Below are positions 11,426 to 25,224 of a stretch of DNA of 64,000 bases, in pieces. The first letter of the stretch is position 1. Each line of letters begins with the position of its first letter. The position numbers and the translations under genes were made by a program. The notes beneath the pieces were generated by a model that saw only the letters and a program-made list of their open reading frames with translations, did no database searches and was not told where the DNA came from. The stretch is from Sphingomonas limnosediminicola (GTDB lineage: Bacteria > Pseudomonadota > Alphaproteobacteria > Sphingomonadales > Sphingomonadaceae): assembly GCF_039537965.1 (NCBI RefSeq), contig NZ_BAABBM010000001.1, positions 992,001 through 1,056,000 of the forward strand, written 5' to 3'.

Positions 11426-12922
11426 TTATTGCTGCGGCCGAGTCACCCCTGACGTGGTCACCGGTTCGATCAACGTCGTGCCGGGCACGAGTTGCGGCGT
11501 GACGGCCGGATTGGGCGGTAGCTCATTGGGATCCACGGTGCGGGTCGCGGCCGTCGGGTGGCGAGGATCGGTGGACCAATCGCTCCAGCTCCCCGCGACA
11601 CGACGATAATTGCCGAGCGGATCGTACAGCGGACCGCCGTCGAGCCCGAGGTCCTGCGCTTCCGCCTGACCCATCGCATTCAGCAGCTGGAAGCCAGCCA
11701 CATATGCGTCACGCTTCGCGGTCACCAGTTCGACCTGGGAGTTCAACAGTTCCTGCTCGGCATTCAAAACGTCGAGAACGGTGCGCGTGCCGACACTTTG
11801 CTCGGCGCGAGCGCCTTCGAGCGCGAGCTCGTTGGCCTGGGCGGCGACAGTATTGGACTGGATCGCTTTTTGCGCTGCGTCGTAGAGCGCGAACGCGGCG
11901 CGCGCAGCCTGGACGACGGCGCGTTCCGTGCCGACGACCTGCTCCGTGACCTGGCCCTGCTGGGCCTGCGCCTGACGAATACGCGCCGAGGGAAGGCCGC
12001 CCTGAAAGATCGGGATCCTGGAACTCAGGCCGATGGCCGTCTGCCCGCCGGTGCTCTGCTGATTCCCGATCGTGCCGCCAAGCTCGTTCACGTAGGTGCC
12101 GCTTCCCACTGCCGACAAAGTAGGCAGCCGGCTCGCTTCGGCGACGCGAACGTCATATCCAGCGGCGATCGCCTGACGCGTGATGGCAATGAGGTCGGGA
12201 TTATTCGCGAGCGCGATTCGAACGGCCTCTTCCGGGCTTGTTGGAAGCGGCGGAAGCGGCGGCGGCGGGGCCAACACGCCTGGCGGATGGCCGATAACCT
12301 GACGGTAAGTGGCTTCGCTCGCCGTCAGGCGGCCTTGCGATTCCGCAAGCCGCGAACGCCCGAGCTGCAACCGCGCTTCCGACTGAGCGACGTCGGTCCG
12401 AGTAAGATCACCAATCTGAAAGCGGTCGCGTGTCGCCTCGAGGTTGGTGGTCAGGACTTTGACGTTGTTGGCGTTGAGCTCCACGATGGCGCGATCGCGG
12501 ATGACATCCATGTATGCCGTGACGGCCTGGGTGAAGACATCGCCCTCGACAGCGCGAAGCGTGGCCCGGCTTGCCTCTACCCGGGTCTTCGCGGCACGAA
12601 CGTCATTCCTGACCGCGCCGCCGTTGAATATTGGGTAGCTCAGGTCCAGCCCAGCCGAGAGCGTGGGCCCGTTTCCCCCCGTCTCCAGAATGCCGCTGCG
12701 GCTGAGGTCGCGGTTGATGCCCAAGGTGCCACTGACTTGCGGTCGGCCGGCCGCGCGAGCCACCGCCACGCTGGCGTCCACGCCACGCAGGACTTCACGC
12801 TGCGCCGTGAGTGTCGGGTTGGTGTGGTAGGACGAGACAAGCGCCTCGCGCAGGGTGTCGGCCGAGGCCGTACCCGCCATCAGCGCAGCAACCAGCGATC
12901 CGGAAATAAGCTTACGAAGCAC
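11426..12922 (-). CDS. tolC: TolC family outer membrane efflux channel
   Basis: 498 residues with an N-terminal signal peptide (LISGSLVAALMAGTASA). The body carries two long alternating helix-strand repeats; typical pieces are DVAQSEARLQLGRSRLAESQGRL and TVLDVLNAEQELLNSQVELV. The C-terminus is a proline- and threonine-rich tail of about 70 residues. TolC trimers form the outer membrane exit duct for ABC and RND pumps and type I secretion. A partner adaptor and ABC pump are encoded 10 kb away at 16578-23603. The gene is 10 bases downstream of the Pcm-like gene and probably co-transcribed with it. See the sigma-54 site at 14013-14028 for possible shared control with the pump. Confidence 0.93.
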   Translation of the reverse strand: MLRKLISGSLVAALMAGTASADTLREALVSSYHTNPTLTAQREVLRGVDASVAVARAAGRPQVSGTLGINRDLSRSGILETGGNGPTLSAGLDLSYPIFNGGAVRNDVRAAKTRVEASRATLRAVEGDVFTQAVTAYMDVIRDRAIVELNANNVKVLTTNLEATRDRFQIGDLTRTDVAQSEARLQLGRSRLAESQGRLTASEATYRQVIGHPPGVLAPPPPLPPLPTSPEEAVRIALANNPDLIAITRQAIAAGYDVRVAEASRLPTLSAVGSGTYVNELGGTIGNQQSTGGQTAIGLSSRIPIFQGGLPSARIRQAQAQQGQVTEQVVGTERAVVQAARAAFALYDAAQKAIQSNTVAAQANELALEGARAEQSVGTRTVLDVLNAEQELLNSQVELVTAKRDAYVAGFQLLNAMGQAEAQDLGLDGGPLYDPLGNYRRVAGSWSDWSTDPRHPTAATRTVDPNELPPNPAVTPQLVPGTTLIEPVTTSGVTRPQQ

Positions 12923-12931
12923 GCTGCCCCC

Positions 12932-13582
12932 TTAAAATTTGAATTCTTTCGGGCGGCTGAAGCCGGGCAGCGCCGGAACCCCCGAATCGCTTATGGAAAG
13001 ATAACCGAACGCGTCGCCGGCCTTGCGTCCAACCACGAGCCGGGTAACGCCGCGATCGATGATCGCCGTGCCGAGACGGCCGCCGTCGTCGAGCTGGGCG
13101 ACGATCTCGTCCGGGATGAACTCGACCGCGCCATCGATCAGGATTTGCTGAAAGGGGCCGCAGTCGGCCGCGCCGGCTGAGAGCGGTCCCTCGACAATAT
13201 CAGCGCCGAGTTCGCGCGCCTCCGCTGCAAGATCAGCATCGCTCTCGACGGCGACGACGTCGAGGCCGATCGCCCGCAGCACGGCGGCGGAATAACCGGT
13301 CCCCGCGCCGACAACGAGCGCGCGCTGACCCGGCATGGGCGCCATCTGCGTCAGCAACTGCCCAAGGACGGCCGGCGGCGGCAGGTAGCGCCCATTGCCG
13401 AAGGAAAGCGCGCGGTCGGCATAAGCAAGCGGGCGCACGCCAGCAGGGAGAAACTTCTCACGCTGGATCGTGCCCATCGCACGCGTAACCGCGGGGTCCA
13501 CAACGCCCTGCGGGCGAAGCTGGCTTTCCACCATGGCCTCGCGGGCGGCGGCGAAATCGGGAATAGGAGTGTGCACCGTCAT
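12932..13582 (-). CDS. Protein-L-isoaspartate O-methyltransferase family protein (Pcm-like)
   Basis: 216 residues. The SAM-binding motif ALVVGAGTGYSAAVL is near residue 90, after the Pcm-type N-terminal region (MVESQLRPQGVVDPAVTRAM and REKFLPAGVRPLAY). Classical Pcm repairs isoaspartyl residues. This alphaproteobacterial subtype sits next to tolC, but its motif I reads VVGAGTGYSA, so repair activity is inferred from family only. It starts at ATG 13582, directly left of the tRNA-Cys region, and heads the leftward tolC/PopZ-like group. A weak native promoter was not obvious; the nearest strong promoter-like signal is the sigma-54 site at 14013-14028. Confidence 0.82.
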   Translation of the reverse strand: MTVHTPIPDFAAAREAMVESQLRPQGVVDPAVTRAMGTIQREKFLPAGVRPLAYADRALSFGNGRYLPPPAVLGQLLTQMAPMPGQRALVVGAGTGYSAAVLRAIGLDVVAVESDADLAAEARELGADIVEGPLSAGAADCGPFQQILIDGAVEFIPDEIVAQLDDGGRLGTAIIDRGVTRLVVGRKAGDAFGYLSISDSGVPALPGFSRPKEFKF

Positions 13583-13790
13583 AGCTGTTATATGCCGCTA
13601 ATACACCGTTAGTTCAAGTTTCTCCTGCGCGAAGACGCAGGCTGTCGAGATGCGCTCATATCGGCACGGGCACGCGAGGCCAACCGCCGTTGATAGAATG
13701 ACGAGCGGCTGTGTCCCGAAGGTTTCACGCTTTCCAGTCTTGGGGTTGACCGCGGCGGGACCGGCACGGCAAAGGCAGCCGCTCTCCCCC

Positions 13791-13864
13791 GGCCCGATGG
13801 CGGAGTGGTTACGCAGAGGACTGCAAATCCTTGCACGCCGGTTCGATTCCGGCTCGGGCCTCCA
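13791..13864 (+). tRNA. tRNA-Cys (GCA)
   Basis: A full cloverleaf can be drawn. The acceptor arms are GGCCCGA (13791-13797) and TCGGGCC (13854-13860). The anticodon stem is GAGGA/TCCTT around loop CTGCAAA, with anticodon GCA at 13823-13825. The T arm contains GGTTCGATTCC. CCA is encoded at 13862-13864. It stands alone between leftward genes and the FixLJ region. A leftward transcript from the sigma-54 site at 14013 would run antisense across it. Confidence 0.97.
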
Positions 13865-13903
13865 TCTCCATCCGGTCTAGGGAACGACCGGTTCGCGGCG
13901 CCC

Positions 13904-13940
13904 TGTCCGGACTTGAACAGGTGATGTCCATAAGCGGACA
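13904..13940. promoter_or_regulatory. Pair of TGTCC-N6-GGACA-type operators
   Basis: Two 16-bp palindromes lie in tandem: TGTCCGGACTTGAACA at 13904-13919 and TGTCCATAAGCGGACA at 13925-13940, separated by 5 bases, so their centres are 21 bp apart (two helical turns). The same pair with the same 5-base gap occurs at 23661-23697 in front of the exporter operon, and both pairs lie about 72 bases downstream of a leftward sigma-54 promoter. I infer binding sites for an NtrC-type activator, most simply the one encoded at 23854. Confidence 0.7.
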
Positions 13941-14012
13941 CCGATGACCCGCCCCTCTCGGTATCGGTCAGAGCGGCTGTTGATCTGTCGCTATTCATTC
14001 CCACACTGAAAC

Positions 14013-14028
14013 TGCAACTTGCGTGCCA
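14013..14028 (-). promoter_or_regulatory. Sigma-54 promoter, leftward
   Basis: On the minus strand the sequence reads TGGCACGCAAGTTGCA, a match to the -24/-12 consensus TGGCAC-N5-TTGC with the invariant GG and GC in place. It points toward the tRNA-Cys (antisense) and the pcm-like/tolC genes, with an expected start near 14001. The upstream side carries a 9-bp inverted repeat at 14048-14078. Confidence 0.7.
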
Positions 14029-14047
14029 AGTGGGCGAGCTGAATCCT

Positions 14048-14078
14048 GTGACTTTGCTAGTCATGGCAACAAAGTCAC
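14048..14078. repeat. 9-bp inverted repeat upstream of sigma-54 promoter
   Basis: GTGACTTTG at 14048-14056 and its perfect complement CAAAGTCAC at 14070-14078 flank 13 bases. It lies 20 bases upstream of the leftward -24 element and ends 51 bases before the small gene at 14130. It could be a further activator site or belong to the rightward genes; which one is not clear from sequence. Confidence 0.5.
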
Positions 14079-14129
14079 TATGGGAAACCACGTATACATC
14101 CGGGCCAGGGTTTCGGGCATCAAAACCCG

Positions 14130-14477
14130 ATGGTTTGGAGATCAATTCGCCTGGAGTTGGGCAGCACCGAAGAATTTCCTGCCGGCTCGGTGAGTCGCGT
14201 CTACCTCATCCGCTTGCCGCTGGATGATCGCGATACAGTTGACGAGAGAGCGTTTCGCGACAGCCCGGCGCATGCAACCGTCAGGCGCCATTGGTCCACT
14301 GAACCCGATAAGCGCGGCGTCGTCGTCCAGTCGGGCTGCAACTGGACGCTTCAATGCAACGGAGATCCTGGGCGCGCCCTGTGCCTCGACGGCAAGCCGA
14401 TTCGGCTCGGCCAGGCGATTACTGTCATTGAGCCCGACGGCACCCGATTGCCATTCAAGGTTGCGAGCGTCCGCTGA
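14130..14477 (+). CDS. Conserved hypothetical protein, fixL-linked
   Basis: 115 residues, no signal peptide or membrane segment. It contains the segments LGSTEEFPAGSVSRVYLIRLP, a central HATVRRHWSTEPDKRG, and a C-terminal ITVIEPDGTRLPFKVASV. The shape suggests a small beta-rich cytoplasmic protein. I recall similar small proteins in sphingomonads but no known function. It is 38 bases upstream of fixL in the same direction, so it may be the first gene of that operon. In-frame starts just inside (TTG 14136, TTG 14154 region) are possible, since the conserved part begins with IRLELG. Confidence 0.65.
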   Translation: MVWRSIRLELGSTEEFPAGSVSRVYLIRLPLDDRDTVDERAFRDSPAHATVRRHWSTEPDKRGVVVQSGCNWTLQCNGDPGRALCLDGKPIRLGQAITVIEPDGTRLPFKVASVR

Positions 14478-14515
14478 ACATTCGACCGGTCGCTTCGACC
14501 TGCTATAGTTCCGCG

Positions 14516-15652
14516 ATGGACGGTCCGGCCGATCACTCGCACACGTCTCTGGTGGGCCAAGAAGAGCACTTTCGCTCTATCCTGGCGACCGTTCCGGACG
14601 CCATGGTCCTGATTGATGAAAAGGGAATCATCCTTTCGTTCAGTGCCGCTGCCGAAAAGATGTTCGGTTATGCCGAAGACGAAGCGGTCGGCGAAAATGT
14701 GTCGATGCTGATGCCCTCCCCGGACCGCGAGCGGCACGATGGGTACCTCAAAAACTACCAAGACACGGGGGTCCGAAAGATCATTGGGATCGGCCGTGTC
14801 ACCACCGCGCGTCACCGCGACGGCAACACGTTTCCGATCGAGCTTACGGTCGGCGAAACCTGGGTCGAGGGACAGCGCATATTCACCGGCTTCATCCATG
14901 ACATTACGCAGCGGCGGGAAACGGACCTGCGGCTGCGGGATCTCCAGACGGAGCTCGCCCATGTCGGCCGGCTTAGCGAGATGGGAATGCTAGCGTCTTC
15001 GCTTGCGCACGAACTCAACCAGCCGCTGACCGCGATCGCCAGTTATTGCGAAGGAGTCGCCGATCTCCTGAGCGGTGACCCAGACGCCGAGCGAATCGAA
15101 ACGGCGAGAGAGGCACTTCGGGAGACGGCCGATCAGGCGCTTCGGGCTGGCCAGATCGTCAAGCGCATGCGCGATTTCCTTAGCCATGGGCAGACCGAAT
15201 ACCGGGTGGAAAGCCTCGCGCGCATCGTCACCGAAGCGAACGCACTGGCGCTGGTCGGTTCGCAAGAACATGGGATCGACGTTCAGGTGGAAATCGACCC
15301 CTCCGCCGACCAGGTTTTCGTCGACAGGATCCAGATCCAGCAGGTCCTGTTCAATTTGATCCGGAATGCCATCGAGGCAATGATGGACGCGCTCCACAGA
15401 TCACTAACGATTTTGACCGAGGGTGCGGATGACGTCGTGACGATCAGCGTCGAGGACACCGGATCCGGCATTGACGATTCCGTTGCGGCGCAACTGTTTC
15501 AGCCTTTCATCACGTCCAAACCATCTGGCATGGGCATCGGCCTGTCGATTTCCCGCACGATCATCGAAGCGCACGGTGGGCGCATTTGGTGCGAGGCGAA
15601 CCCTGCCGGTGGGACCATCTTTCGATTCACCCTTCCAAAAGCTGAGATCTAG
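14516..15652 (+). CDS. fixL: FixL-type haem-PAS oxygen sensor histidine kinase
   Basis: 378 residues and soluble: no membrane segment is present, as in Bradyrhizobium FixL but unlike Sinorhizobium FixL. The PAS domain spans about residues 15-135. Aligned by eye with Bradyrhizobium FixL, the proximal haem ligand is His74 (in DRERHDGYL) and the distal arginine is Arg94 (in IIGIGRV), so oxygen binding is expected. A second haem-edge arginine is replaced by Asn80. The kinase core follows: phospho-acceptor His165 in SSLAHELNQPL, then the ATPase domain with NLIRNAIEAM, DTGSGID and GMGIGLSIS. In the family, low oxygen releases kinase activity toward FixJ. No nitrogen-fixation gene is visible in the window, so the output is probably respiratory or metabolic. 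Confidence 0.92.
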   Translation: MDGPADHSHTSLVGQEEHFRSILATVPDAMVLIDEKGIILSFSAAAEKMFGYAEDEAVGENVSMLMPSPDRERHDGYLKNYQDTGVRKIIGIGRVTTARHRDGNTFPIELTVGETWVEGQRIFTGFIHDITQRRETDLRLRDLQTELAHVGRLSEMGMLASSLAHELNQPLTAIASYCEGVADLLSGDPDAERIETAREALRETADQALRAGQIVKRMRDFLSHGQTEYRVESLARIVTEANALALVGSQEHGIDVQVEIDPSADQVFVDRIQIQQVLFNLIRNAIEAMMDALHRSLTILTEGADDVVTISVEDTGSGIDDSVAAQLFQPFITSKPSGMGIGLSISRTIIEAHGGRIWCEANPAGGTIFRFTLPKAEI

Positions 15653-15654
15653 AA

Positions 15655-16272
15655 ATGCCTGATCCGCAAGAACGATTGGTGCACTTGGTCGATGACGATG
15701 CGGCAATCCGCCGGTCGGTCGGCTTTCTCCTCAAGACCTCGGGACACCGCGTCGAGACATACGCGTCCGGTGATGCGCTTCTGAAGCAAAGCAACAAGCT
15801 GAAAGACGGATGCATCCTGCTCGATATCCGAATGCCAGGAATGGACGGACTGGAGGTTCAGGAAGCGCTGCAGTCGAAGGGCGTCGCGCTCCCCGTCATA
15901 ATCATGACGGGCCACGGCGACGTGACTCTGGCAGTGAAGGCAATGAAGGCCGGCGCAGTCGATTTCATCGAAAAGCCGTTCGAGAAGGCCACGCTGCTTG
16001 AATCCCTCGACGAGGCGTATCGCCGACTGTCGACCAAAGAGGTCACGGACGACCGGGCGCGGGACGCGTCGTTGCGGTTGCAGGTGCTAACTGCCCGTGA
16101 GCGAGACGTTCTAGACGGCCTGTCTCACGGTCTGCCCAACAAGACGATCGCCTACGATCTCGGGATCAGCTCCCGGACCGTGGAGATACACCGCGCGAAC
16201 CTGATGACGAAGCTTGGCGTGCGCAGCTTGTCCGAAGCGCTTCGGATCGCCTTTGCGGCGCAAGGCAATTGA
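15655..16272 (+). CDS. fixJ: FixJ-type response regulator
   Basis: 205 residues. The receiver domain (residues 7-120) has the acidic pair in LVDDDAAIR, phospho-acceptor Asp57 in LLDIRMPGMDG and the conserved lysine in FIEKPFEKA. The C-terminal LuxR-type helix-turn-helix is at about residues 140-205 (LTARERDVLDGLSHGLPNKTI, then SSRTVEIHRANLMTKL). It starts 2 bases after the fixL stop, so the two are one transcription unit. FixJ dimers normally activate fixK-type genes; no fixK gene lies in the window. The gene is followed by an intergenic stretch with two long hairpins. Confidence 0.93.
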   Translation: MPDPQERLVHLVDDDAAIRRSVGFLLKTSGHRVETYASGDALLKQSNKLKDGCILLDIRMPGMDGLEVQEALQSKGVALPVIIMTGHGDVTLAVKAMKAGAVDFIEKPFEKATLLESLDEAYRRLSTKEVTDDRARDASLRLQVLTARERDVLDGLSHGLPNKTIAYDLGISSRTVEIHRANLMTKLGVRSLSEALRIAFAAQGN

Positions 16273-16362
16273 TAGTGCCCTGAGCAGGTAGCAGCACCCT
16301 TAATGAAGGCTCCGTAACAGTACGTATGGAGCAAACCGGGCGCGGAAGCCTAGGCACGAGTT

Positions 16363-16405
16363 GACCTTCCGGAGTCCCCCTCCCCCAGCCAAACTCCGGA
16401 AGGTC
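16363..16405. repeat. Long hairpin A: 13-bp perfect arms, 17-base loop
   Basis: GACCTTCCGGAGT (16363-16375) pairs perfectly with ACTCCGGAAGGTC (16393-16405) around a 17-base, C-rich loop. It lies in the 305-base gap between the ends of fixJ and the convergent permease gene. There is no T run on either side, so it is not a classical intrinsic terminator. Hairpin B (16495-16537) has identical geometry. Confidence 0.75.
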
Positions 16406-16494
16406 CTGTTCACAGCGACGCCCGTGCGCGCTGTCCTCATCCTGCAGCGACAGACCTCGAGCGCGAGCGATTTGGGCTCAGACTCGGAAGCTTA

Positions 16495-16537
16495 GGTCAC
16501 CGCGGGCAAGAGCACAGCAAGCACGCCCGCGGTGACC
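16495..16537. repeat. Long hairpin B: 13-bp perfect arms, 17-base loop
   Basis: GGTCACCGCGGGC (16495-16507) pairs perfectly with GCCCGCGGTGACC (16525-16537) around a 17-base loop. It is followed at 16545-16570 by a weaker GCCGGG/CCCGGC inverted repeat. It lies 40 bases from the permease stop. It may stop or stabilise the leftward exporter mRNA, or be part of a small RNA; neither is shown by the sequence. Confidence 0.75.
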
Positions 16538-16577
16538 AGCTTACGCCGGGTGAAAGGGACTCGGCCCGGCGCAATCC

Positions 16578-19073
16578 TTACTCATATCTCAGGGCATAAA
16601 TCGGGTTGGCCCGCGCGACTTTGACCGCGTGCCCGAGGACGGTGACTACCGCGATGCCAAGCGCAATCGCAGCGGCGAGCACGAAGGGCACTGGGGTCAG
16701 CGCGATCCTCTGGTCGAAGCCGTTGAGCCAGTCCCGCATCATCCACCAGGCGATCGGCCAGGCGATGATGTTGGCGATGATCACCGGCCGGCTGAACTGC
16801 CACACGAGCAGCTGCACAATATCTCGCGTCCGGGCCCCGAGCACCTTGCGGATGCCGATCTCCTTGGTGCGCCGCTGGGCGGTGAAGGCAGCAAGGCCGA
16901 ACAGGCCGAGGCAACCGATGATCACCGCCAGCAGCGAGAAGGCGGCGAAGATCTGCGCCCGCGCGTCTTCCTTCTTGTAGAGCTCGCCCATGATATCTTC
17001 GCTAAACTTGGCATTGAACGGCACGTCGCTGGTATTGAGCTTCCACTGCCGCTCGATGGCCGACTTCACCGTTACCGGATCGCCGTTGTAGCGAACCATC
17101 ATCCACCCAGGGCCGGTCTTCACCTTGTGGAACATGATTGGCTCGATCGGCGTGCGCACGGTGCGGAAGCGAGAATCGCCGACAACGCCGATGATCGTGA
17201 TGTTGGTCATGCCGTTCTCGTCGCCGAAGAACTCCGTCCTCGCGACCTTGCCGATCGCGTCCTCGGGCGATTTGAAGCCGAGCTTGCGGGCGGCATATTC
17301 GTTGACGACGACATTGATGCCGCGCTGCGCGAGCGCCTTCTCATAAGCTTTATCCTGAGGATAAGGCACAGTGCTGTCGTCGGCTGGCCGGTTGACGTCG
17401 AACCAACGGCCAGCCACCAGCTTTAACCCCATCGCGTTTAGATAGTCGGCACCGACATTATACTGGCCGATCAGCACCTGCTTGTTGCTGCCCGGGGGCA
17501 GGATGAAGGTGTTGCTGCTATTATCGGTCGCGACGCCGATATCGGTCAGCGCGGCCGCGGTGACGCCGGGGATTCGCTTAATTTGCTCAACGATATTCTC
17601 CGCCTTCGGCCAGAGCTGCGCGCGCCCAAGCTCGTCGAGCTGCAGGACATGATCACGCTTGAAGCCGGGGTCGACCGTGCGCGCATAGACCGTTTGCCCA
17701 TATATGACGGCGGTGCAGACAATGAGACCGATCGAAACCGCGAACTGAAGCACGACTAGAGCCGAGCGAAGGCGGCCCGAGCCCGGCGTTTCCGCAGCGG
17801 AGCGGTTTGCCTTGAGCACCTGCGCCGGCTGAAAGCGTGACAGGAAGAACGCGGGATAGAGGCCGCTGAGGATGCCTACCAGCAGCGCCAGCCCGACCGC
17901 CGGCAGGAGCACGCCTTCCCTGCCAAGATAGCTGAGCGCGATGTCGGCATCGAGGAACGCAGCGAAAGGCCGGACGAGCAGCTCCACCAACGCCAGTGCG
18001 AGAAGCATCGACACCGCCGAAATGAGTATTGATTCACTGACGAACTGGACGATCAATTGCTTCCGGGTCGCGCCGAGCACTTTGCGGAGGGCGACCTCGC
18101 GGGCGCGCTGGCTTGCGCGCGCGGTCGCCAGGTTGGTGAAGTTCACGACGGCCATACCAAGGATCAGCATGGCGATGATCGCGAAGGTGGTGATCGTGCG
18201 CTTGTCGTTGCCCGGCGTCAGGCTGCTGTCTTGGGCCTTGCCGAGGTGGACGTTCTGCAGGTTTACGAAGTGCCAGTCTTCGTCCGTGCCCTGGTTGTAC
18301 ATGACGCTGCCGTTGGGCTCGTCGGGAATGTTGCGCTTTTCCCAGGCGGGCATCTGCGCCTCGAGTGTCTTCACGTCGGTGCCCGGCCGTAGCTTCACGT
18401 AGACGTAGCCCGACTGGCAGCCCCAGCACTTGGTCAGGAAGTCGGGGTTGTCGGAATTGAAGGCGACAAAATCGAGCCGCATGATCGCGTTGAATTTCAT
18501 GCTCGAATTCTTCGGCAGATCCCTGATCACGCCGGTGATCTTGAAATCGCGTTTCAAGCCACGTGAGATGACGGTCAACGTCTGGCCGAGCACGCGGTCG
18601 GTGCCGAATACCTTCCTCGCTTCAGACTGCGTCAGGACCGCTGTCTGCGGCGCCGGCAGCGTCGTTCCCGAGACCAACGGCAGGCTCACGGCTTTCAGGA
18701 AGTCCTCGTCCGTGAACATGTAGCCCTTGGTCGAAGTCGCCTGTCCGTCCTTGATCAGGACCGGGCCATTGTCCTGGATGTACGCCGCGGCCTGGACCTG
18801 GGGGAAATCCTTCTTCACGCGATCCTTCGACACATAAGCCGACATTTGCATGAAGCTCGGGACGCCATCCGACGGATGGGGATACCAGGCCTGGAGCTCG
18901 TAAGTGTTCTCCACGTCCGGAAGCCACTTGTCGTAGCTCTGCTCGTAACGGATGTAGAGCAGGATCAGGATGCAAGCCGCCATGCCGATGGCGAGGCCGG
19001 CGATATTGATGATCGAATAGGTCTTGCTCTTCGCAAGCGCCCTGACCGCTACCGTCCAATAATTCCGCCACAT
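16578..19073 (-). CDS. ABC transporter permease, MacB/FtsX type (second copy)
   Basis: 831 residues from ATG 19073; the frame is open to 19181 but the paralogue at 19111-21603 begins at the matching MWRNYWTVAVRALAKS. The plan is duplicated: membrane helix near residues 20-42, periplasmic MacB-type core, three helices of the first FtsX domain near 285-440, a further helix near 490, a second periplasmic core, and a second FtsX domain in the last 140 residues with the motif TKEIGIRKVLGARTRDIVQLL. Such large permeases work with an ATPase, adaptor and TolC to move substrates out of the periplasm or inner membrane by mechanotransmission. The gene is the last of the operon and is closely similar to its neighbour, indicating a tandem duplication. 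Confidence 0.9.
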   Translation of the reverse strand: MWRNYWTVAVRALAKSKTYSIINIAGLAIGMAACILILLYIRYEQSYDKWLPDVENTYELQAWYPHPSDGVPSFMQMSAYVSKDRVKKDFPQVQAAAYIQDNGPVLIKDGQATSTKGYMFTDEDFLKAVSLPLVSGTTLPAPQTAVLTQSEARKVFGTDRVLGQTLTVISRGLKRDFKITGVIRDLPKNSSMKFNAIMRLDFVAFNSDNPDFLTKCWGCQSGYVYVKLRPGTDVKTLEAQMPAWEKRNIPDEPNGSVMYNQGTDEDWHFVNLQNVHLGKAQDSSLTPGNDKRTITTFAIIAMLILGMAVVNFTNLATARASQRAREVALRKVLGATRKQLIVQFVSESILISAVSMLLALALVELLVRPFAAFLDADIALSYLGREGVLLPAVGLALLVGILSGLYPAFFLSRFQPAQVLKANRSAAETPGSGRLRSALVVLQFAVSIGLIVCTAVIYGQTVYARTVDPGFKRDHVLQLDELGRAQLWPKAENIVEQIKRIPGVTAAALTDIGVATDNSSNTFILPPGSNKQVLIGQYNVGADYLNAMGLKLVAGRWFDVNRPADDSTVPYPQDKAYEKALAQRGINVVVNEYAARKLGFKSPEDAIGKVARTEFFGDENGMTNITIIGVVGDSRFRTVRTPIEPIMFHKVKTGPGWMMVRYNGDPVTVKSAIERQWKLNTSDVPFNAKFSEDIMGELYKKEDARAQIFAAFSLLAVIIGCLGLFGLAAFTAQRRTKEIGIRKVLGARTRDIVQLLVWQFSRPVIIANIIAWPIAWWMMRDWLNGFDQRIALTPVPFVLAAAIALGIAVVTVLGHAVKVARANPIYALRYE

Positions 19074-19110
19074 GGCCCTTGTCCTTTGGCGAACTGGTTG
19101 AGCCGGAATT

Positions 19111-21603
19111 CTACTCGTACCGAAGCGCGTAAATCGGATTAGCCCTCGCCACCCGGACGGCGTGGCCGACCACCGTCGCAACCGCGATGCCGAGAGCGAT
19201 GGCCGCGGCGATCACGAAGGGAATCGGCGTCAGCGTGATCCGCTGGTCGAAGCCGTTCAGCCAGTCCCGCATCATCCACCAGGCGACCGGCCAGGCGATG
19301 ATGTTGGCGATGATCACCGGCCGGCTGAACTGCCACACGAGCAACTGGACGATGTCCCGCGTCCGCGCGCCGAGCACCTTACGAATGCCGATCTCCTTGG
19401 TGCGCCGTTCCGCGGTGAACGCCGCCAGGCCGAACAGGCCGAGGCAACCGATTATCACGGCGAGCAACGAGAAGGCCGCGAAGATCTGCGCGCGGGAATC
19501 CTCGGCCTTGTACAGCTCACGGATGATGTCCTCGCTGAACTTGGCCTGGAAGGGCACATCGTTCGAGATTTGCTTCCATTGCCGCTCGATCGCCGCTTCG
19601 ACCGTCGCCGGATCGCCGCGATAGCGGATGATCATGAAAGCCGGGCCCTTTTTCACGTTCTGGAACATGATCGGGTCGATCGGCGTGCGGACGGTGCGGA
19701 ACCGGGTGTCGCCAACCACGCCGATGATGTTGATTTCGACCATGCCGGTGCCGGGCTCGAACAACTCGCTTTTCACGACCTTGCCGATGGCGTCTTGCGG
19801 CGATTTGAAGCCGAGCTTTTTCACCGCATATTGGTTGAGGACGACGTTCACCCCCCGCCGCGCCATCGCGATTTCCTGTTCCTTCTGGATCGGGAAATCG
19901 AAGGTCATGTCGTCGGCCGGCCGGTTACGGTCGAACCAGCGGCCCGCGAGCAGCTTCATGCCCATCGCATCGAGGAAGCCATCGCTGACGCCATATTGTC
20001 CGATGGTGACCTGCTTGTTGCTTCCCGGCGGGATCAGGCCCGTGTTGTTGTTGTTGTCGGTCGCGACGCCGATGTCGGTCAGGCCGACCGCGACGACGCC
20101 CGGGATCCGCTTCATCTGCTCGACGATCGTTTCCGCCTTAGGCAGCAGCTGATAGCGATTGAGGTCCTCGACCTGCAGGATGTGGTCGCGCTTGTAACCG
20201 GGGTCGACCGAGCGCGCGTAGACCGTCTGGCCGTAGATGACGGCGGTGCAGATGATGAGCCCGATGGACACCGCGAACTGCGCGATCACCAGCGCCGTGC
20301 GCAGACGGCCCGAGCCTGGCGTTTCGGCAGCAGAGCGATTGGCCTTGAGTACTTGCGCAGGCTGGAAGCGCGACAGGAAGAAAGCGGGATAAAGGCCGCT
20401 GACGATCCCGACCAGCAAGGTCAGCCCGATCGCGGGGAGCAGGATTCCACCCTGCCCGAAATAGTGAAGCGTGAGATCGGCATCGAGGAAGGCCGCGAAC
20501 GGCTTCACAAGCAGCTCGACCAGCGCCAGCGCAAGCAACATCGCCACCGCCGAAATCAGGATAGATTCCGCCACGAACTGGACGATCAACTGGCCGCGCG
20601 TGGCGCCAAGCACCTTGCGAAGCGCAACCTCACGAGCGCGCTGACCAGCGCGCGCGGTTGCGAGGTTGGTGAAGTTTACCACCGCCATGCCCAGGATCAG
20701 CAGCGCAATAATCCCGAAGGTTGCGATCGAGCGCCGGTCGTTGCCGGGCGTCATCGTGCCGCCTTGCGCCTTGCCCAAGTGCACGTCGCGCAGATTGACG
20801 AAATGCCAATCCTGTTCGTCGCCCTGATTGAACCGCACGCTGCCGTTGGGCTGGTCGGGGATGTTGCGCTTCTCCCACGCCGGCATTTGCGCTTCCAACG
20901 ACTTTACGTCGGTTCCCGGCTTCAGCTGGAGCCAGACCCAACCCGATTGGCAGCCCCAGCAGGTCAGAAAGTTTGGTTCCGACGCGAAGAAGCTGGTGAA
21001 GTCCATGCGCAGGATGGCGTTGACCTTGAGGCTCGAATTCTTCGGCACGTCCTTGATCACGCCTGTGATCTTGAAGTCGCGCTTCACGCCCTTGGAGATG
21101 ACGGTCAGCGTCCGCCCAACGACCTGGTCGGTGCCGTAGCGATTGCGCGCCTCGGTCTGTGTAAGCACCGCTGTCTGCGCCGCCGGCAGCGTGCTTCCCG
21201 CCACCAGCGGAAGGTTGACGACCTTCAGGAAGTCGTCGTCGGTGATCAGATAATCCTTGGTCCCCGACGCCTGCCCGTCCTTGTAGAACACCGGCTGGCT
21301 GCCGAGCGCGTAGACGGCCTTCGTGACTTGCGGGAAGTCCTTACGGATGCGGTCCTTGGTCACATAGGCCGACATCTGCAGGAAGATCGGCTCTCCGTCC
21401 TGAGGATGCGGATACCAAGCCTGAAGCTGGTAGGTGTTATCGACGTTCGGAAGCCACGTGTCGTAGCTCTTTTCGTAGCGGATATAGAGCAGGATCAGGA
21501 TGCACGCGGCCATGCCGATGGCGAGGCCGGCGATGTTGATGACCGAGTAGGTCCTGCTCTTGGCAAGCGCGCGAACCGCGACCGTCCAATAATTCCGCCA
21601 CAT
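19111..21603 (-). CDS. ABC transporter permease, MacB/FtsX type (first copy)
   Basis: 830 residues from ATG 21603. The domain order is the same as in the neighbouring copy: N-terminal helix (IINIAGLAIGMAACILILLY-like), periplasmic core, FtsX domain with REVALRKVLGATRGQL, second core, and C-terminal FtsX domain with RRTKEIGIRKVLGARTRDI. The membrane regions are almost identical to the second copy. The periplasmic cores differ more, for example DDNDDN-type versus other insertions around residue 540, which suggests that the two proteins form a heterodimer with different substrate faces (inference). It lies 46 bases after the ATPase gene and 37 bases before the second permease. Confidence 0.9.
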   Translation of the reverse strand: MWRNYWTVAVRALAKSRTYSVINIAGLAIGMAACILILLYIRYEKSYDTWLPNVDNTYQLQAWYPHPQDGEPIFLQMSAYVTKDRIRKDFPQVTKAVYALGSQPVFYKDGQASGTKDYLITDDDFLKVVNLPLVAGSTLPAAQTAVLTQTEARNRYGTDQVVGRTLTVISKGVKRDFKITGVIKDVPKNSSLKVNAILRMDFTSFFASEPNFLTCWGCQSGWVWLQLKPGTDVKSLEAQMPAWEKRNIPDQPNGSVRFNQGDEQDWHFVNLRDVHLGKAQGGTMTPGNDRRSIATFGIIALLILGMAVVNFTNLATARAGQRAREVALRKVLGATRGQLIVQFVAESILISAVAMLLALALVELLVKPFAAFLDADLTLHYFGQGGILLPAIGLTLLVGIVSGLYPAFFLSRFQPAQVLKANRSAAETPGSGRLRTALVIAQFAVSIGLIICTAVIYGQTVYARSVDPGYKRDHILQVEDLNRYQLLPKAETIVEQMKRIPGVVAVGLTDIGVATDNNNNTGLIPPGSNKQVTIGQYGVSDGFLDAMGMKLLAGRWFDRNRPADDMTFDFPIQKEQEIAMARRGVNVVLNQYAVKKLGFKSPQDAIGKVVKSELFEPGTGMVEINIIGVVGDTRFRTVRTPIDPIMFQNVKKGPAFMIIRYRGDPATVEAAIERQWKQISNDVPFQAKFSEDIIRELYKAEDSRAQIFAAFSLLAVIIGCLGLFGLAAFTAERRTKEIGIRKVLGARTRDIVQLLVWQFSRPVIIANIIAWPVAWWMMRDWLNGFDQRITLTPIPFVIAAAIALGIAVATVVGHAVRVARANPIYALRYE

Positions 21604-21649
21604 GGCTGTCATTCCCTGCAAAATCGTGACTTCGTGACTGACTGGCCGC

Positions 21650-22330
21650 TCAGGCGGCGCGCCGGCGCTCCTGGAGAATCCGGCCGTCGAGCATGTTCAC
21701 GACGCGGCTCGCGAAATCCGCGTGCGCCGGCGAGTGCGTGACCATGACGATGGTCGAGCCTTCCTGGTTGAGCTGACGAAGCATCCGCATGACTTCTTCG
21801 CCATGCGCCGTATCGAGGTTTCCGGTCGGCTCGTCCGCAAGGATGAGCTTGGGCTCGCCGACGAGAGCGCGGGCGACGGCCACGCGCTGCTGCTGGCCGC
21901 CTGAAAGCTGGGTTGGCCGGTGCTTGGCTCGATGGGCGATGCCGACCTTGTCGAGGACGCGGTCGACGCGTGACTTGCGCTCAGCGGCCGAATGATTGTG
22001 GTAGAGAAGCGCTAGTTCGACGTTCTCGCGGACCGTCAGCTCGTCGACTAGATTGAAGCTCTGGAAGATGAAGCCGATGTTGCTTTTGCGCGTATCGGCG
22101 AGCTGCGATTCATTGAGGCCCGCGACCTCGTGTCCATTGAACACGTAAGAGCCGCAGGTCGGGCTATCGAGCATGCCCATCACATTGAGCAGCGTCGATT
22201 TGCCGCAGCCCGACGGGCCCATGATCGCGACGAATTCGCCGTCGGCAATGTCGAGGTCGACATTGTCGAGCGCGGTCGTTTCGACCGTGTCGGTGCGGTA
22301 GGACTTGGTAAGGCCAGTCATGGTGAGCAC
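21650..22330 (-). CDS. ABC transporter ATP-binding protein (MacB/LolD type)
   Basis: 226 residues, a single nucleotide-binding domain. Walker A is [11 protein letters not shown] near residue 40, the signature is [15 protein letters not shown], and Walker B is [12 protein letters not shown] followed by the switch histidine in MVTHS. LolD/MacB-type ATPases pair with FtsX-like permeases; here two permeases lie directly downstream. The start ATG 22330 lies 16 bases after the adaptor gene, so the operon order is adaptor, ATPase, permease, permease. Confidence 0.95.
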
Positions 22331-22346
22331 GGGTGGTGTTCCTTTC

Positions 22347-23603
22347 TTACTCGCCGGAGCTGAAGGTCAGGCGGTCCTTGTCGATGAGACCGCTGTACGA
22401 GGAGGTGATGACGCGCTCTCCCGGTGAGAGCCCGCTCAGGACTTCGATATATTCGGCATTTCGGCGTCCGAGCTGGACCTGCCGCTTGGTCGCGCCGTTG
22501 CCGCTCTTGTCGACGACGAACACCCAGTTGCCGCCGGTGTCGTTGAAGAAGGCGCCATTCGGAATCAGCACCGCCTTCGAGCTGTCGCCGAGCGTCAGCT
22601 TGGTCTGGATCGTCTGGCCGCGCTGCACCGACGAGGGCGCGACGCCATCGAAGGTCAGGTCGATCTGGAACTGGCCGTTGCGGACCTGCGGATAGACCTT
22701 TGCGACCTTGAGCCGGTAGGTCTTGCCCTCGAAGTCGGCGGTTGCCGTCTGCCCGACGCGCACGCGGCCGAGATAAAATTCGTCGACGTCGGCCTGGAGC
22801 TTGTTGCTACCGGTGCTGTCGATCTGCCCGATGCGCTCGCCCTGCTGAAGCGACTGGCCGAGCTGGATGTCGAAGCCGCTGAGCTCCCCGGTTACAGGCG
22901 CCCGAATGCTGAGTTGACCGAGATTGCTGCGGGCGATGCCCATGCTGCTGTTGAGCGAGGATGAGGCGATGCGGAGCTGCTGCAACTGGCTCGACTGCAG
23001 TGCTTCCGTCTGACCGATGCTCTGCTTGAGAATCGCCAGGCGCTGCTGCTGATACTGAAGGTCGTCCTTCGTATCGTTGAAGGTTTTCATCGACACGAAG
23101 CCGCGCTCGGAGAGCGGCTTCTGCAGGTCATACTGGCGCCTTGCCTTGGCGAGATCGGTCTCCGCCTGATTCAGGTCGCGCAGGTTCGAGTTGCGTGTCT
23201 GCGTCAGCGCAAGTTCCTGGCTGCGCATGTTATTGAGTTGCTGCTCGACCTCGGCCTGCTTCTCGAGCGTAGAGAGCTGAAGCTCCGCGTTCGAGAGGAC
23301 TGCGAGCATTTGCCCCTGCGTGACGTGCGCGCCATCCTCGACGAGCTTCTGGTCGACGCGCCCGCCCTCGACCGCGTCGAGATAGACGGTGACCAGCGGC
23401 GTGACGCGCGCCCGCAAGGGAAGAAAGTCCTCGAACGTGCCCGACTCAATCGTCGCGATCGTCAGCCGGTCGCGAGTCACCGACATGGAGTCTGAGCGCG
23501 GTGCGAACAGCCAGAAAATGGAAACCAGCACCAGGACTGCGGCCGCCGCGCCGCCGATCAGGATCCGCTTGTCGATCTTCTTTCGGACAACGACGCGGTC
23601 CAT
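22347..23603 (-). CDS. HlyD/MacA-type periplasmic efflux adaptor
   Basis: 418 residues from ATG 23603. The frame is open to 23825, but the added 74 residues run over the promoter and operators and are not protein-like. A short cytoplasmic start (MDRVVVRKKIDKR) is followed by one membrane helix (ILIGGAAAAVLVLVSIFWLF). Then come a lipoyl half-motif, a long coiled-coil hairpin (about residues 110-230, rich in Gln, Leu and Glu) and the returning barrel with RAPVTGELSGFDIQLGQSL. The C-terminal part is the membrane-proximal domain. Adaptors of this type bridge the inner-membrane ABC pump to a TolC channel. It is the first gene of the operon under the sigma-54 site at 23771-23786. Confidence 0.9.
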   Translation of the reverse strand: MDRVVVRKKIDKRILIGGAAAAVLVLVSIFWLFAPRSDSMSVTRDRLTIATIESGTFEDFLPLRARVTPLVTVYLDAVEGGRVDQKLVEDGAHVTQGQMLAVLSNAELQLSTLEKQAEVEQQLNNMRSQELALTQTRNSNLRDLNQAETDLAKARRQYDLQKPLSERGFVSMKTFNDTKDDLQYQQQRLAILKQSIGQTEALQSSQLQQLRIASSSLNSSMGIARSNLGQLSIRAPVTGELSGFDIQLGQSLQQGERIGQIDSTGSNKLQADVDEFYLGRVRVGQTATADFEGKTYRLKVAKVYPQVRNGQFQIDLTFDGVAPSSVQRGQTIQTKLTLGDSSKAVLIPNGAFFNDTGGNWVFVVDKSGNGATKRQVQLGRRNAEYIEVLSGLSPGERVITSSYSGLIDKDRLTFSSGE

Positions 23604-23660
23604 TGCGCCGCCGCTTACCGGCTCCGGGCGATTGGTTTGACGAAGTTCCACCAGGCTCAC

Positions 23661-23697
23661 TGTCCACCTTTGGTCAGTGAGTGTCCGGAAGCGGACA
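23661..23697. promoter_or_regulatory. Pair of TGTCC-N6-GGACA-type operators
   Basis: Two 16-bp palindromes: TGTCCACCTTTGGTCA at 23661-23676 (one mismatch in the right half) and TGTCCGGAAGCGGACA at 23682-23697 (perfect halves, extended to GTGTCCG/CGGACAC), 5 bases apart. They lie in the leader between the sigma-54 promoter and the adaptor start. The layout is the same as at 13904-13940. Confidence 0.75.
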
Positions 23698-23770
23698 CGT
23701 GACGGAGGCCGTTCAGGAAAGAGCCCGTAGTGAAGATCAAATAGGGTGCACGGTTCATGGACCGTTACGC

Positions 23771-23786
23771 TGCAAGGCGCGTGCCA
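23771..23786 (-). promoter_or_regulatory. Sigma-54 promoter of the exporter operon
   Basis: The minus strand reads TGGCACGCGCCTTGCA, an excellent -24/-12 match (TGGCAC-N5-TTGC). The expected start near 23759 gives a leader of about 155 bases before the adaptor ATG. The neighbouring regulator has the GAFTGA loop needed to work with sigma-54. Confidence 0.8.
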
Positions 23787-23794
23787 AACGGCAC

Positions 23795-23834
23795 TGACAA
23801 TTTCTTTGTCATGCCCACTGTTCAATATCGGACA
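23795..23834. promoter_or_regulatory. Two palindromes upstream of the sigma-54 promoter
   Basis: TGACAA-TTTCT-TTGTCA occupies 23795-23811, and TGTTC-AATATC-GGACA occupies 23819-23834. The second is a weaker version of the TGTCC-N6-GGACA operator and ends 19 bases before the regulator start. It could serve as the upstream activator site for the exporter promoter and as a site for autoregulation. Confidence 0.45.
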
Positions 23835-23853
23835 GTGGCGCTACAAAAGTAGC

Positions 23854-25224
23854 GTGAAGCCGCCTTTCAGCCTTGCCGTCATCGTTGACGACGATCCGGA
23901 CATCACGCTCGCTGCCAAGCTGGCGCTGCGCGACTTGTTCGAAAAGGTCGAGACCTTTGGGTCTCCGGCCGAGTTGCTGACGCTACTGAAAGACACCAGT
24001 CCCGACGCAATTCTGCTCGATCTCAATTTTCAGCGTGGCGCGACCGACGGGCGCGAGGGTCTCGGGCTTCTCGGCCAGATCATGGAGCTCGATCCCGATG
24101 CCGCAGTCGTCATTATCACCGCGCACGGTGCCGTCTCAATTGCTGTCGAGGCCATCAAGGCGGGCGCCAGCGACTTCGTCGCAAAGCCGTGGAGCAACGA
24201 GCGATTGGCGGCCACGGTGAGGAGCGCCGCAGCCCTTCGCCATAGTCGCATCGACGCACGTACGGAGCGTGGGCGCGCGACCGAGCTGTTGCCCTCGACG
24301 GAAACGCCACTGCTCGGGCATTCGCCCGCGATGGAGCGCGTCCGCGTGCTTATCGAACGCGCAGCGCCGACCGACGCCAACGTCCTGATCCTTGGTGAGA
24401 ACGGCACCGGCAAGGAGATCGTCGCGCGCGAAATCCATCGCCTGTCGCGCCGCAACGCCCAGCCGATGATCTCCATCGACCTCGGCGCCACCAGTGAGAG
24501 CCTGTTCGAATCTGAGCTGTTCGGCCACGTCAAAGGCGCCTTCACCGGTGCCGCGGGCGAGCGCATCGGGCGGCTGAAGGCTGCGGACCACAGCACCTTG
24601 TTTCTCGACGAGATCGGCAACCTGCCCCTTCATCTTCAGCCCAAGCTCCTAACCGCGCTCGAGCAGCGAGAGGTGGTGCCGGTTGGCGCCAATCGGCCGA
24701 CGCCGATCGACGTCCGGGTGGTCGCTGCAACCAACGCATCGCCGGAGCAGCTCGCCGATGAGAAGAAGTTCCGGCAGGACCTGCTATTCCGGCTCAACAC
24801 GATCGAGATCGAACTCCCGCCGCTGCGCGACCGCCGCGAGGACATCCCCGACCTGCTCGACCATTATCTCAGCCTTTATGCGCGCAAATACGACAAGCCG
24901 CAGCGGAAGCTTCCGCCCGGCGTGCTGCAAATGCTTATCGAGCATGATTGGCCCGGGAATGTCCGCGCGCTTCGCCACGCCTCGGAACGCGCCGTCATCA
25001 TGGCGGAAGGCGACGAGTATCGCGCCGAGGATTTTCCGCTTCCGACGCGTCATCGCGCGGCGCCGCTGTCGGCGGAAAGCGATACGCTGAACCTCGATCA
25101 GCTTGAAAAGCAGATGATCGAGCGTGCGCTCCGGATGCATCATTTCAACGTGTCGCTGGCGGCGAGCGAGTTGGGGCTGAGCCGCGGTGCGCTGTACCGG
25201 CGCATGGAGAAGCATGGGCTTTAG
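23854..25224 (+). CDS. NtrC-family sigma-54-dependent response regulator
   Basis: 456 residues from GTG 23854; the frame is open to 23746 but the added part covers the palindromes and promoter. The receiver domain has acidic VIVDDDPD, phospho-acceptor Asp56 in ILLDLNF and lysine in FVAKPWSNE. The AAA+ domain has Walker A GENGTGKE near residue 181, the sigma-54 contact loop GAFTGA near residue 228, and FLDEIGNLPLHLQPKLL. A Fis-type helix-turn-helix closes the protein (LAASELGLSRGALYRRMEKHG). It activates sigma-54 promoters when phosphorylated. It is divergent from the exporter operon and overlaps the downstream kinase gene by 11 bases. Confidence 0.95.
   Translation: MKPPFSLAVIVDDDPDITLAAKLALRDLFEKVETFGSPAELLTLLKDTSPDAILLDLNFQRGATDGREGLGLLGQIMELDPDAAVVIITAHGAVSIAVEAIKAGASDFVAKPWSNERLAATVRSAAALRHSRIDARTERGRATELLPSTETPLLGHSPAMERVRVLIERAAPTDANVLILGENGTGKEIVAREIHRLSRRNAQPMISIDLGATSESLFESELFGHVKGAFTGAAGERIGRLKAADHSTLFLDEIGNLPLHLQPKLLTALEQREVVPVGANRPTPIDVRVVAATNASPEQLADEKKFRQDLLFRLNTIEIELPPLRDRREDIPDLLDHYLSLYARKYDKPQRKLPPGVLQMLIEHDWPGNVRALRHASERAVIMAEGDEYRAEDFPLPTRHRAAPLSAESDTLNLDQLEKQMIERALRMHHFNVSLAASELGLSRGALYRRMEKHGL

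Follow-up and report, generated by a model that had tools for sequence, protein, structure and literature searches.

Paired operators predicted downstream of two sigma-54 promoters, within leader reading frames, at an export pump and a pcm-tolC locus of Sphingomonas limnosediminicola

Why should two operons almost 10 kb apart carry the same pair of palindromes at nearly the same distance downstream of a sigma-54 promoter? Natural downstream enhancers of sigma-54 promoters are rare and, to our knowledge, flagellar. The question is raised by a stretch of 64,000 nt from the Sphingomonas limnosediminicola genome (NZ_BAABBM010000001.1, positions 992,001 to 1,056,000; here called the window, with positions counted from its first letter), in which an earlier note made from the sequence alone had described two such loci and named a neighbouring NtrC-type response regulator as the natural binder. 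Both loci read, on the minus strand and in the same order, TGGCACG-N4-TTGCA, 72 or 73 bases, a perfect TGTCC-N6-GGACA palindrome, 5 bases and a weaker palindrome, the two palindromes starting 21 bp apart. The arrangement, the orientation and the spacing are confirmed as the note gave them. The sigma-54-type (-24/-12) sites are exact, TGGCACGCGCCTTGCA at 23786-23771 (locus 1) and TGGCACGCAAGTTGCA at 14028-14013 (locus 2), and are the sole exact matches within the window; with transcription taken to start 12 bases after the C of the -12 element, +1 is predicted near 23760 and 14002. The strong copies, identical at 14 of 16 positions as had been said, are predicted operators at 23682..23697 (TGTCCGCTTCCGGACA, about +64 to +79) and 13925..13940 (TGTCCGCTTATGGACA, about +63 to +78), both on the minus strand as are the weaker predicted operators at 23661..23676, which adjoins the start codon of the pump operon, and at 13904..13919. 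On the comparisons below we consider it probable that the pairs form an enhancer inside a translated leaderless leader, from which the response regulator would activate an export pump and a pcm-tolC unit from downstream.

Taken singly, neither motif stands out in the window. The sigma-54 motif with at most two mismatches occurs 5 times against a shuffled mean of 7.0, not above chance, so that the promoter motif on its own is no proof; the palindrome with at most two mismatches occurs 30 times against a shuffled mean of 23.4, which is near chance. The arrangement of the two loci does exceed chance. The whole genome, a single contig of 2,848,166 bases, contains the perfect palindrome four times and a reversed control not at all, and three of the four copies have a TGGCACG...TGC site no more than 135 bp away. 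The four are locus 1, locus 2, one before a blaI-like/M56-like gene pair and one before a small open reading frame (ORF) followed by a PspC-like ORF (these names were given by reading and are not search results). The double palindrome with at most 3 mismatches in 20 positions is found at exactly loci 1 and 2, and a one-pattern search (sigma-54 site, 60-90 bases, perfect palindrome) matched 4 of 298 family genomes, the S. limnosediminicola genome twice and the control not at all. The genome-wide search that the earlier note had proposed thus returned only the two loci it reported, bearing out its judgement that their agreement is unlikely by chance. It had overlooked a third palindrome, a leader ORF at each locus and the genes downstream of locus 2, and its reading left out that locus 2 is pcm-tolC, that the downstream position is apparently derived and that the operators lie within leader ORFs.

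Locus 1 points into a predicted export operon on the minus strand, encoding a HlyD-type membrane-fusion protein (22347..23660; Pfam HlyD_3 and HlyD_D23, with the NCBIfam RND_mfp subfamily over and DarC under cut-off; GTG start taken from orthologues), an ABC transporter ATPase (21650..22330; best NCBIfam match DarD, under cut-off) and two MacB_PCD/FtsX permeases (19111..21621 and 16578..19181, both with mechanical ORF starts). Divergent from it on the plus strand are the NtrC-type response regulator (23854..25224, hereafter the regulator; GTG start inferred) and a sensor histidine kinase (25187..26542; mechanical ORF start). The regulator has a receiver, an AAA+ domain with GAFTGA and a Fis-type helix-turn-helix, with Pfam Response_reg, Sigma54_activat and HTH_8 all over cut-off. 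Locus 2 points across an opposite-strand tRNA-Cys(GCA) (13791..13864, plus strand), which lies between the promoter and pcm, into pcm itself (12932..13582, minus strand; PCMT-family protein) and then a TolC-type outer membrane efflux protein (11426..12922, minus strand; Pfam OEP). A pump of the membrane-fusion/ABC type requires a TolC-type channel, and co-regulation of pump and tolC is therefore sensible. Because a leader ORF and pcm-tolC are present, an mRNA is likelier than a small RNA at locus 2; the latter candidate was rejected, Rfam at gathering score having given tRNA only in the window.

If the regulator binds the pair, then the two should occur together. Sixteen of 71 genus genomes were called regulator-positive (E 1e-100), and the double palindrome (at most 3/20 mismatches; 21 sites) was found in 14 of these and in none of the 55 regulator-negative genomes, while a control pattern matched 4 of the 71, all regulator-negative. 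Fisher's test gives p 5e-13, although the genomes are related and the value is a guide only. The two regulator-positive genomes without the pair, G341 and G356, have divergent regulators of 66 and 59% identity. This co-occurrence supports the regulator as the natural binder, and on that basis we treat it as the putative one. The single exact palindrome was tried as a marker and rejected, with 16/16 regulator-positive against 10/16 regulator-negative genomes and many matches inside long ORFs; given this poor separation it is the pair that is the useful pattern. The main-clade pump set consists of 13 loci from the 16 regulator-positive genomes. Outside it are the divergent loci L126, L124 and L127 (G334, G341 and G356, in that order), and L125, with its regulator at a contig edge, was excluded, its genome G340 being represented by L166. 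All 13 loci have the same sigma-54 site (one ends TTGCT), 87-90 bp from promoter start to strong palindrome and a second palindrome 21 bp later (22 in L120; two mismatches in L115 and L119). The spacers of 71-74 nt are hardly alike (median identity 0.50 vs 0.44 when shuffled), and none of the 13 contains an IHF-like site (WATCAANNNNTTR). At L126 and L127 the palindromes are instead 57-78 bp upstream of the pump promoter, and at L124 they lie about 195-215 bp downstream and 71 bp upstream of it.

The pcm loci tell a similar story. A sigma-54 site (accepted with at most two mismatches) followed by downstream palindromes precedes pcm in 7 of 15 searched regulator-positive genomes and in S. limnosediminicola itself, and in 0 of 15 regulator-negative genomes (Fisher p 0.002). 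At these eight loci the promoter-to-palindrome distance is 87-88 in five and 74-77 in three, about one helical turn between the two classes; the G305 pair is 20 bp apart and the G330 sigma-54 site has two mismatches. The layout is thus kept in relatives at both kinds of locus, where its loss would have counted against the earlier note. No palindrome with at most two mismatches was found in the 300 bp upstream of the eight pcm promoters, and any activation by the regulator would therefore act from downstream.

At both loci the operators lie across what appears to be a leader ORF, and it is this feature, with an ATG at the predicted +1 to +5, that seems to be new here. An ATG stands at promoter offset 26-30 in all 13 main-clade pump loci and 8/8 pcm loci, and at only 4 of 28 other promoters of relatives, a set that includes the downstream loci L028, L029, L124 and L246. 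Among 14 matches to TGGCACRNNNNNTGCW (TGGCACR-type) in the S. limnosediminicola genome two have the ATG, the two loci, and the 12 others do not. The four other promoters of relatives with the ATG are L028, L029, L031 and L251; at L028 and L029, which have downstream palindromes, it opens ORFs (76 and 27 codons) with a stop that overlaps the pump start, and at L031 it is the start of the pump gene itself. L124 has a GTG at offset 25 that opens 69 codons ending just before the pump ATG, possibly a GTG-started leader ORF.

The pump leader ORF (23657..23758, minus strand; ATG at about +3) has exactly 33 codons and no in-frame stop in 13/13 loci, and its stop overlaps the pump start as ATGA or, as in the window, GTGA. 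The other frames do have stops: frame +2 in 7/13, the three reverse frames in 8, 6 and 7 of 13, and frame +1 in 12/13, a count inflated by the ATGA. Mononucleotide-shuffled spacers were open in 7.25/13 on average, and all were open in 4/2000 trials. Codons 2-20 have no coding signature, with identities by codon position of 0.34, 0.29 and 0.31, an amino acid identity of 0.10 and a third-position GC of 0.66, and the amino acids are almost unconserved outside the operators. Since length, end point and open state are kept and the amino acids are not, selection may have been for translation and not for the encoded product. In the window the pcm leader ORF (13609..13998, minus strand) runs for 129 codons from about +5, antisense to the tRNA-Cys, and ends 26 nt before pcm. 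Such ORFs span 107-167 codons in 6/8 loci, leaving 5-26 nt to the pcm start (the aligned one in G197 and G305), and in G348 the ORF is fused in frame to pcm. They cross the tRNA-Cys antisense in more than one frame. Seven of the eight are open to within 30 nt of pcm, and dinucleotide shuffles of those seven are open in 0.7-20%.

These observations can be joined into one mechanism. The kinase (25187-26542) would phosphorylate the regulator, of which two dimers, spaced by two helical turns, would bind the paired TGTCC-N6-GGACA operators and activate the two sigma-54 promoters from downstream, at about +80, so that pump (target 1) and outer-membrane channel (pcm-tolC, target 2) would be made together. 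In the upstream forms found in relatives the pair starts about 100 bp before the promoter, a similar distance on the other side. Ribosomes would read the leader from its first nucleotides at the leaderless ATG, through an ORF that spans the operators and stops at the first structural gene or shortly before it. Sequence comparison establishes the sites with their spacing and conservation, the co-occurrence with the regulator, the genes of the regulon and the leader ORFs; binding, phosphorylation, downstream activation, the transcription start and leader translation are what we infer from it. RNA polymerase would have to pass the bound operators, and the leader RNA could fold palindrome to palindrome over the pump start region; a ribosome loaded on the leaderless ATG would be present from the start and could aid both operator passage and hairpin opening. 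That leader translation was kept so that the ribosome follows RNA polymerase through the operators and opens a hairpin covering the pump ribosome site is the least certain step, and we hold it with less than even confidence. More tentative still is the full statement, in which the enhancer of one regulator would have moved into two transcribed leaders at equal distance, the leaderless ORFs being selected for translation and not for a product, with the ribosome helping polymerase past its activator and opening the hairpin.

Where did the downstream position come from? At the order level the pair (at most two mismatches) occurs in 28 of 396 genomes, with a control match in 1. Eighteen of the 22 non-genus loci adjoin relatives of the regulator and fusion protein (10), of the permease (5) or of pcm-tolC (3). 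In 16 of the 22 the pair is upstream of a sigma-54-like site (at most two mismatches), at 81-110 bp; in L248 and L250 it is also upstream, at 256-257 bp, and in L246 it lies 95 bp downstream; the pairs of L243-L245, without such genes and without a good sigma-54 site, look like chance. The Sandaracinobacteroides locus L029, which is alike around the promoter to L107 and counted once with it, has a downstream pair at 63. Farther afield, palindromes upstream of a sigma-54-like site were also seen in L031 (Acidobacteriota), L033 (Bacteroidota) and the Chitinophaga loci L040 and L091, being 21 bp apart in the two Chitinophaga loci. For the distant regulators L027-L106 a palindrome (at most one mismatch) lies near the gene in 9/80 loci, a density of 1.85 per 10 kb compared with 0.29 elsewhere; three sphingomonad loci supply 6 of the 14 near matches, and the figure therefore says little on distant phyla. 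The 12 main-clade genus rows of a 32-row regulator tree group together (100/100), and L029, L246 and L124, all with downstream palindromes, join them in a larger clade (98/91). As most non-genus pairs are upstream and the close downstream pairs fall in one regulator clade, the close downstream form most likely derives from an ancestral upstream pair. L248, L249 and L250 retain an upstream pair besides downstream palindromes, and pump-side palindromes as such may be older than the close downstream form. L249 (G495), with one pair upstream of a sigma-54 site by the regulator and a second near the pump start, is possibly an intermediate layout.

A third palindrome with one mismatch (23819..23834) lies next to the regulator start. 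A copy with at most one mismatch stands 41-51 bp from a fixed regulator codon in 12/13 main-clade pump loci (L120 has a two-mismatch copy only). At L118 this palindrome is 330 bp from the promoter and 44 bp from the regulator gene, the downstream pair still being at 88. L118, the one locus that keeps the regulator distance and not the promoter distance, hints that the third palindrome goes with the regulator gene, where it would probably serve autoregulation; it could also serve the pump promoter. In L126, L127, L247, L248 and L250 a sigma-54-like site (TGGCACG...TTGAT) is aimed at the regulator gene, and a palindrome begins where this 16-mer ends, over the predicted start, which makes autorepression likely in those loci.

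Several observations weigh against the proposed downstream enhancer in a translated leader. Half of the regulator-positive genomes (8/16; in seven the upstream DNA was searched, in the other it reaches a contig end) lack the layout before pcm, and the tolC link is therefore not universal; for G328 the pcm region was covered as far as the contig end. The pcm leader ORF of G357 stops after 58-59 codons, and L124, L246, L248 and L250 have downstream palindromes and no offset ATG. The downstream position is not limited to one clade either, because palindromes at least 200 bp downstream also occur in the other regulator clade (L028, L248, L250 and the second pair of L249). G334 combines an other-clade regulator and an upstream layout at the pump with a downstream layout at pcm, possibly because the pump locus was transferred. 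A sequence preference of the promoter could account for the ATGA at the predicted start, with the fixed spacing giving a 33-codon frame without translation; the absence of stops, and frames and lengths that vary at pcm, oppose this. Finally, the loci are related, so the counts are not independent, and in 11/13 pump loci a palindrome (at most one mismatch) lies 37-49 bp upstream of the promoter, where it could be the activating site.

This last point leads to a different role for the downstream pairs, that of a repressor brake at high regulator level, with the pump activated from the upstream palindrome and pcm-tolC by another enhancer-binding protein. The upstream palindrome in most main-clade loci, the six strong matches to the sigma-54 activator domain in the S. 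limnosediminicola genome and the upstream plus pump-side pairs of L248, L249 and L250 all fit such a brake. What makes us think it unlikely is the pcm promoters, whose sigma-54 site and palindromes occur in 8/16 regulator-positive against 0/15 regulator-negative genomes and which have no palindrome upstream; L118, with its upstream palindrome far from the promoter, argues the same way, but it is one locus only and elsewhere the distances to regulator (41-51) and promoter (37-49) are about equally tight. Alternatively the palindromes could act in RNA, leader hairpins hiding the pump ribosome site and the leader ORF governing their opening, with the DNA pattern secondary. In 8/13 predicted leader folds (by reading) the two palindromes do pair with each other, the other five, that of the window included, having the first palindrome self-folded, and the second palindrome touches the start codon in 13/13 (with GGAGG inside it in 4/13 and other purine-rich stretches in the rest). 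Yet the folds gain little over shuffled sequence (mean z -1.17), hundreds of bases separate the pcm pair from the start of pcm, and relatives carry the same palindromes upstream of promoters, off the transcript, as does a pspC-like operon at 133-164 bp; we find this account very improbable.

A further thought concerns the pump leader ORF alone, which may have eroded from a small gene found ahead of the pump gene in sister lineages and be kept only for translational coupling. The suggestion comes from L028, L247, L248 and L250, where an ORF of 73-76 codons with a hydrophobic stretch (by reading of the sequence) separates the sigma-54 site from the pump gene and has a stop that overlaps the start codon of the pump. 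Such an origin is compatible with the enhancer model at the pump locus but leaves unexplained both the fixed 33 codons in 13 main-clade loci and the pcm-tolC leader ORFs, in different frames and antisense to tRNA-Cys, and we regard it as rather doubtful. That the likeness of the two loci is due to chance or recent duplication we reject as hardly credible: two-mismatch palindromes and sigma-54 motifs are indeed at chance level in the window, but other genomes keep both the pair and the layout at each of the two loci, and their spacers are unalike.

How does the proposed downstream enhancer compare with known systems? From the title of their 2002 paper, Jyot et al. reportedly set a precedent for downstream sites with FleQ of Pseudomonas aeruginosa. 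FleQ is a flagellar regulator, whereas here a two-component regulator beside an export pump would use paired palindromes of fixed spacing at two operons and within leader ORFs. Mullin and Newton (1993) and Gober and Shapiro (1992) are, again by their titles, said to have given the downstream precedent of FlbD and the ftr elements of Caulobacter flagellar promoters; regulator and target genes differ from those here. The earlier remark that downstream operators are unusual yet known for Caulobacter flagellar genes agrees with these titles. As in systems of the FleQ/FlbD kind a -24/-12 promoter is present and the sites lie, by sequence, downstream of the predicted start, the pair being centred about +80. 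FlbD is reported to be regulated by FliX and not by phosphorylation (PMC3096577). Among non-flagellar systems QseF/GlrR of enterobacteria is also a sigma-54 response regulator, with a site given as TGTCN10GACA (PMC8745638) and with upstream activating sequences described at glmY and rpoE (PMC6075780); the strong TGTCC-N6-GGACA copies of both loci fit that TGTC-N10-GACA form, but our regulator scores 264.2 bits against a GlrR/QseF (NF011695) cut-off of 763. The PrsR/PrsK regulon of PEP-CTERM promoters likewise came to light through a DNA site that accompanies a sigma-54 motif and matches an NtrC-like regulator in phylogenetic profile (Haft et al. 2006, PMC1569441). PrsR (TIGR02915) is the best NCBIfam match of our regulator, at 354.9 bits against a cut-off of 502.6, and its targets are PEP-CTERM genes. 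The pump resembles darobactin-type/ADOP exporters in its fusion protein, separate ATPase and MacB/FtsX permeases, but differs from DarC and DarD (211.9 and 277.3 bits against cut-offs of 450 and 375) and from ADOP (TIGR03434; 332.2 and 334 bits for the permeases against 622.3) and has two permeases in tandem. Among the matches listed in open-licence literature (titles and abstract openings, most subscription journals lying outside) nothing concerned this regulon or leaderless ORFs over sigma-54 enhancers.

The enhancer has apparently switched sides while relatives keep the upstream form, so that natural alleles could serve to test the effect of position. A further question, posed by the leader ORFs, is whether a ribosome helps RNA polymerase past an activator bound downstream, and if this were true a sigma-54 enhancer would be integrated with transcription-translation coupling. 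The comparison also places an uncharacterised export pump and a TolC-type channel in a predicted regulon.

The regulon may extend further. The TGTCC palindrome lies 133-164 bp upstream of the sigma-54-like promoter of a pspC-like operon in 7 genomes (L004/L013, L154, L156, L159, L160, L163 and L170; 133 bp in S. limnosediminicola), consisting of a small hydrophobic ORF of ~35 aa and a PspC-like ORF of 61-62 aa, which we predict to be a third target with a canonical upstream layout. The perfect palindrome before blaI (409717, L001) was rejected as a conserved target, only this locus out of 17 blaI loci having it within 200 bp upstream. Between loci 1 and 2 the window also holds genes for a FixL-like kinase and a FixJ-like regulator (14516-16272), both under NCBIfam cut-offs, for which no part in this system emerged. 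Just upstream of the locus 2 promoter is an inverted repeat, GTGACTTTG / CAAAGTCAC, at 14048-14078; the other seven pcm promoters, inspected by eye, showed no such repeat. At the start of the regulator (23841-23852) there is a BlaI-like box, CTAC-N4-GTAG, as in most main-clade loci. The element CTACAAATGTAG stands before blaI twice in 13/17 blaI loci (L253-L269) and once in 4, and in three genomes (L159, L160, L163) it directly adjoins the TGTCC palindrome of the pspC-like operon; a BlaI/M56-type sensor may share targets with the regulator.

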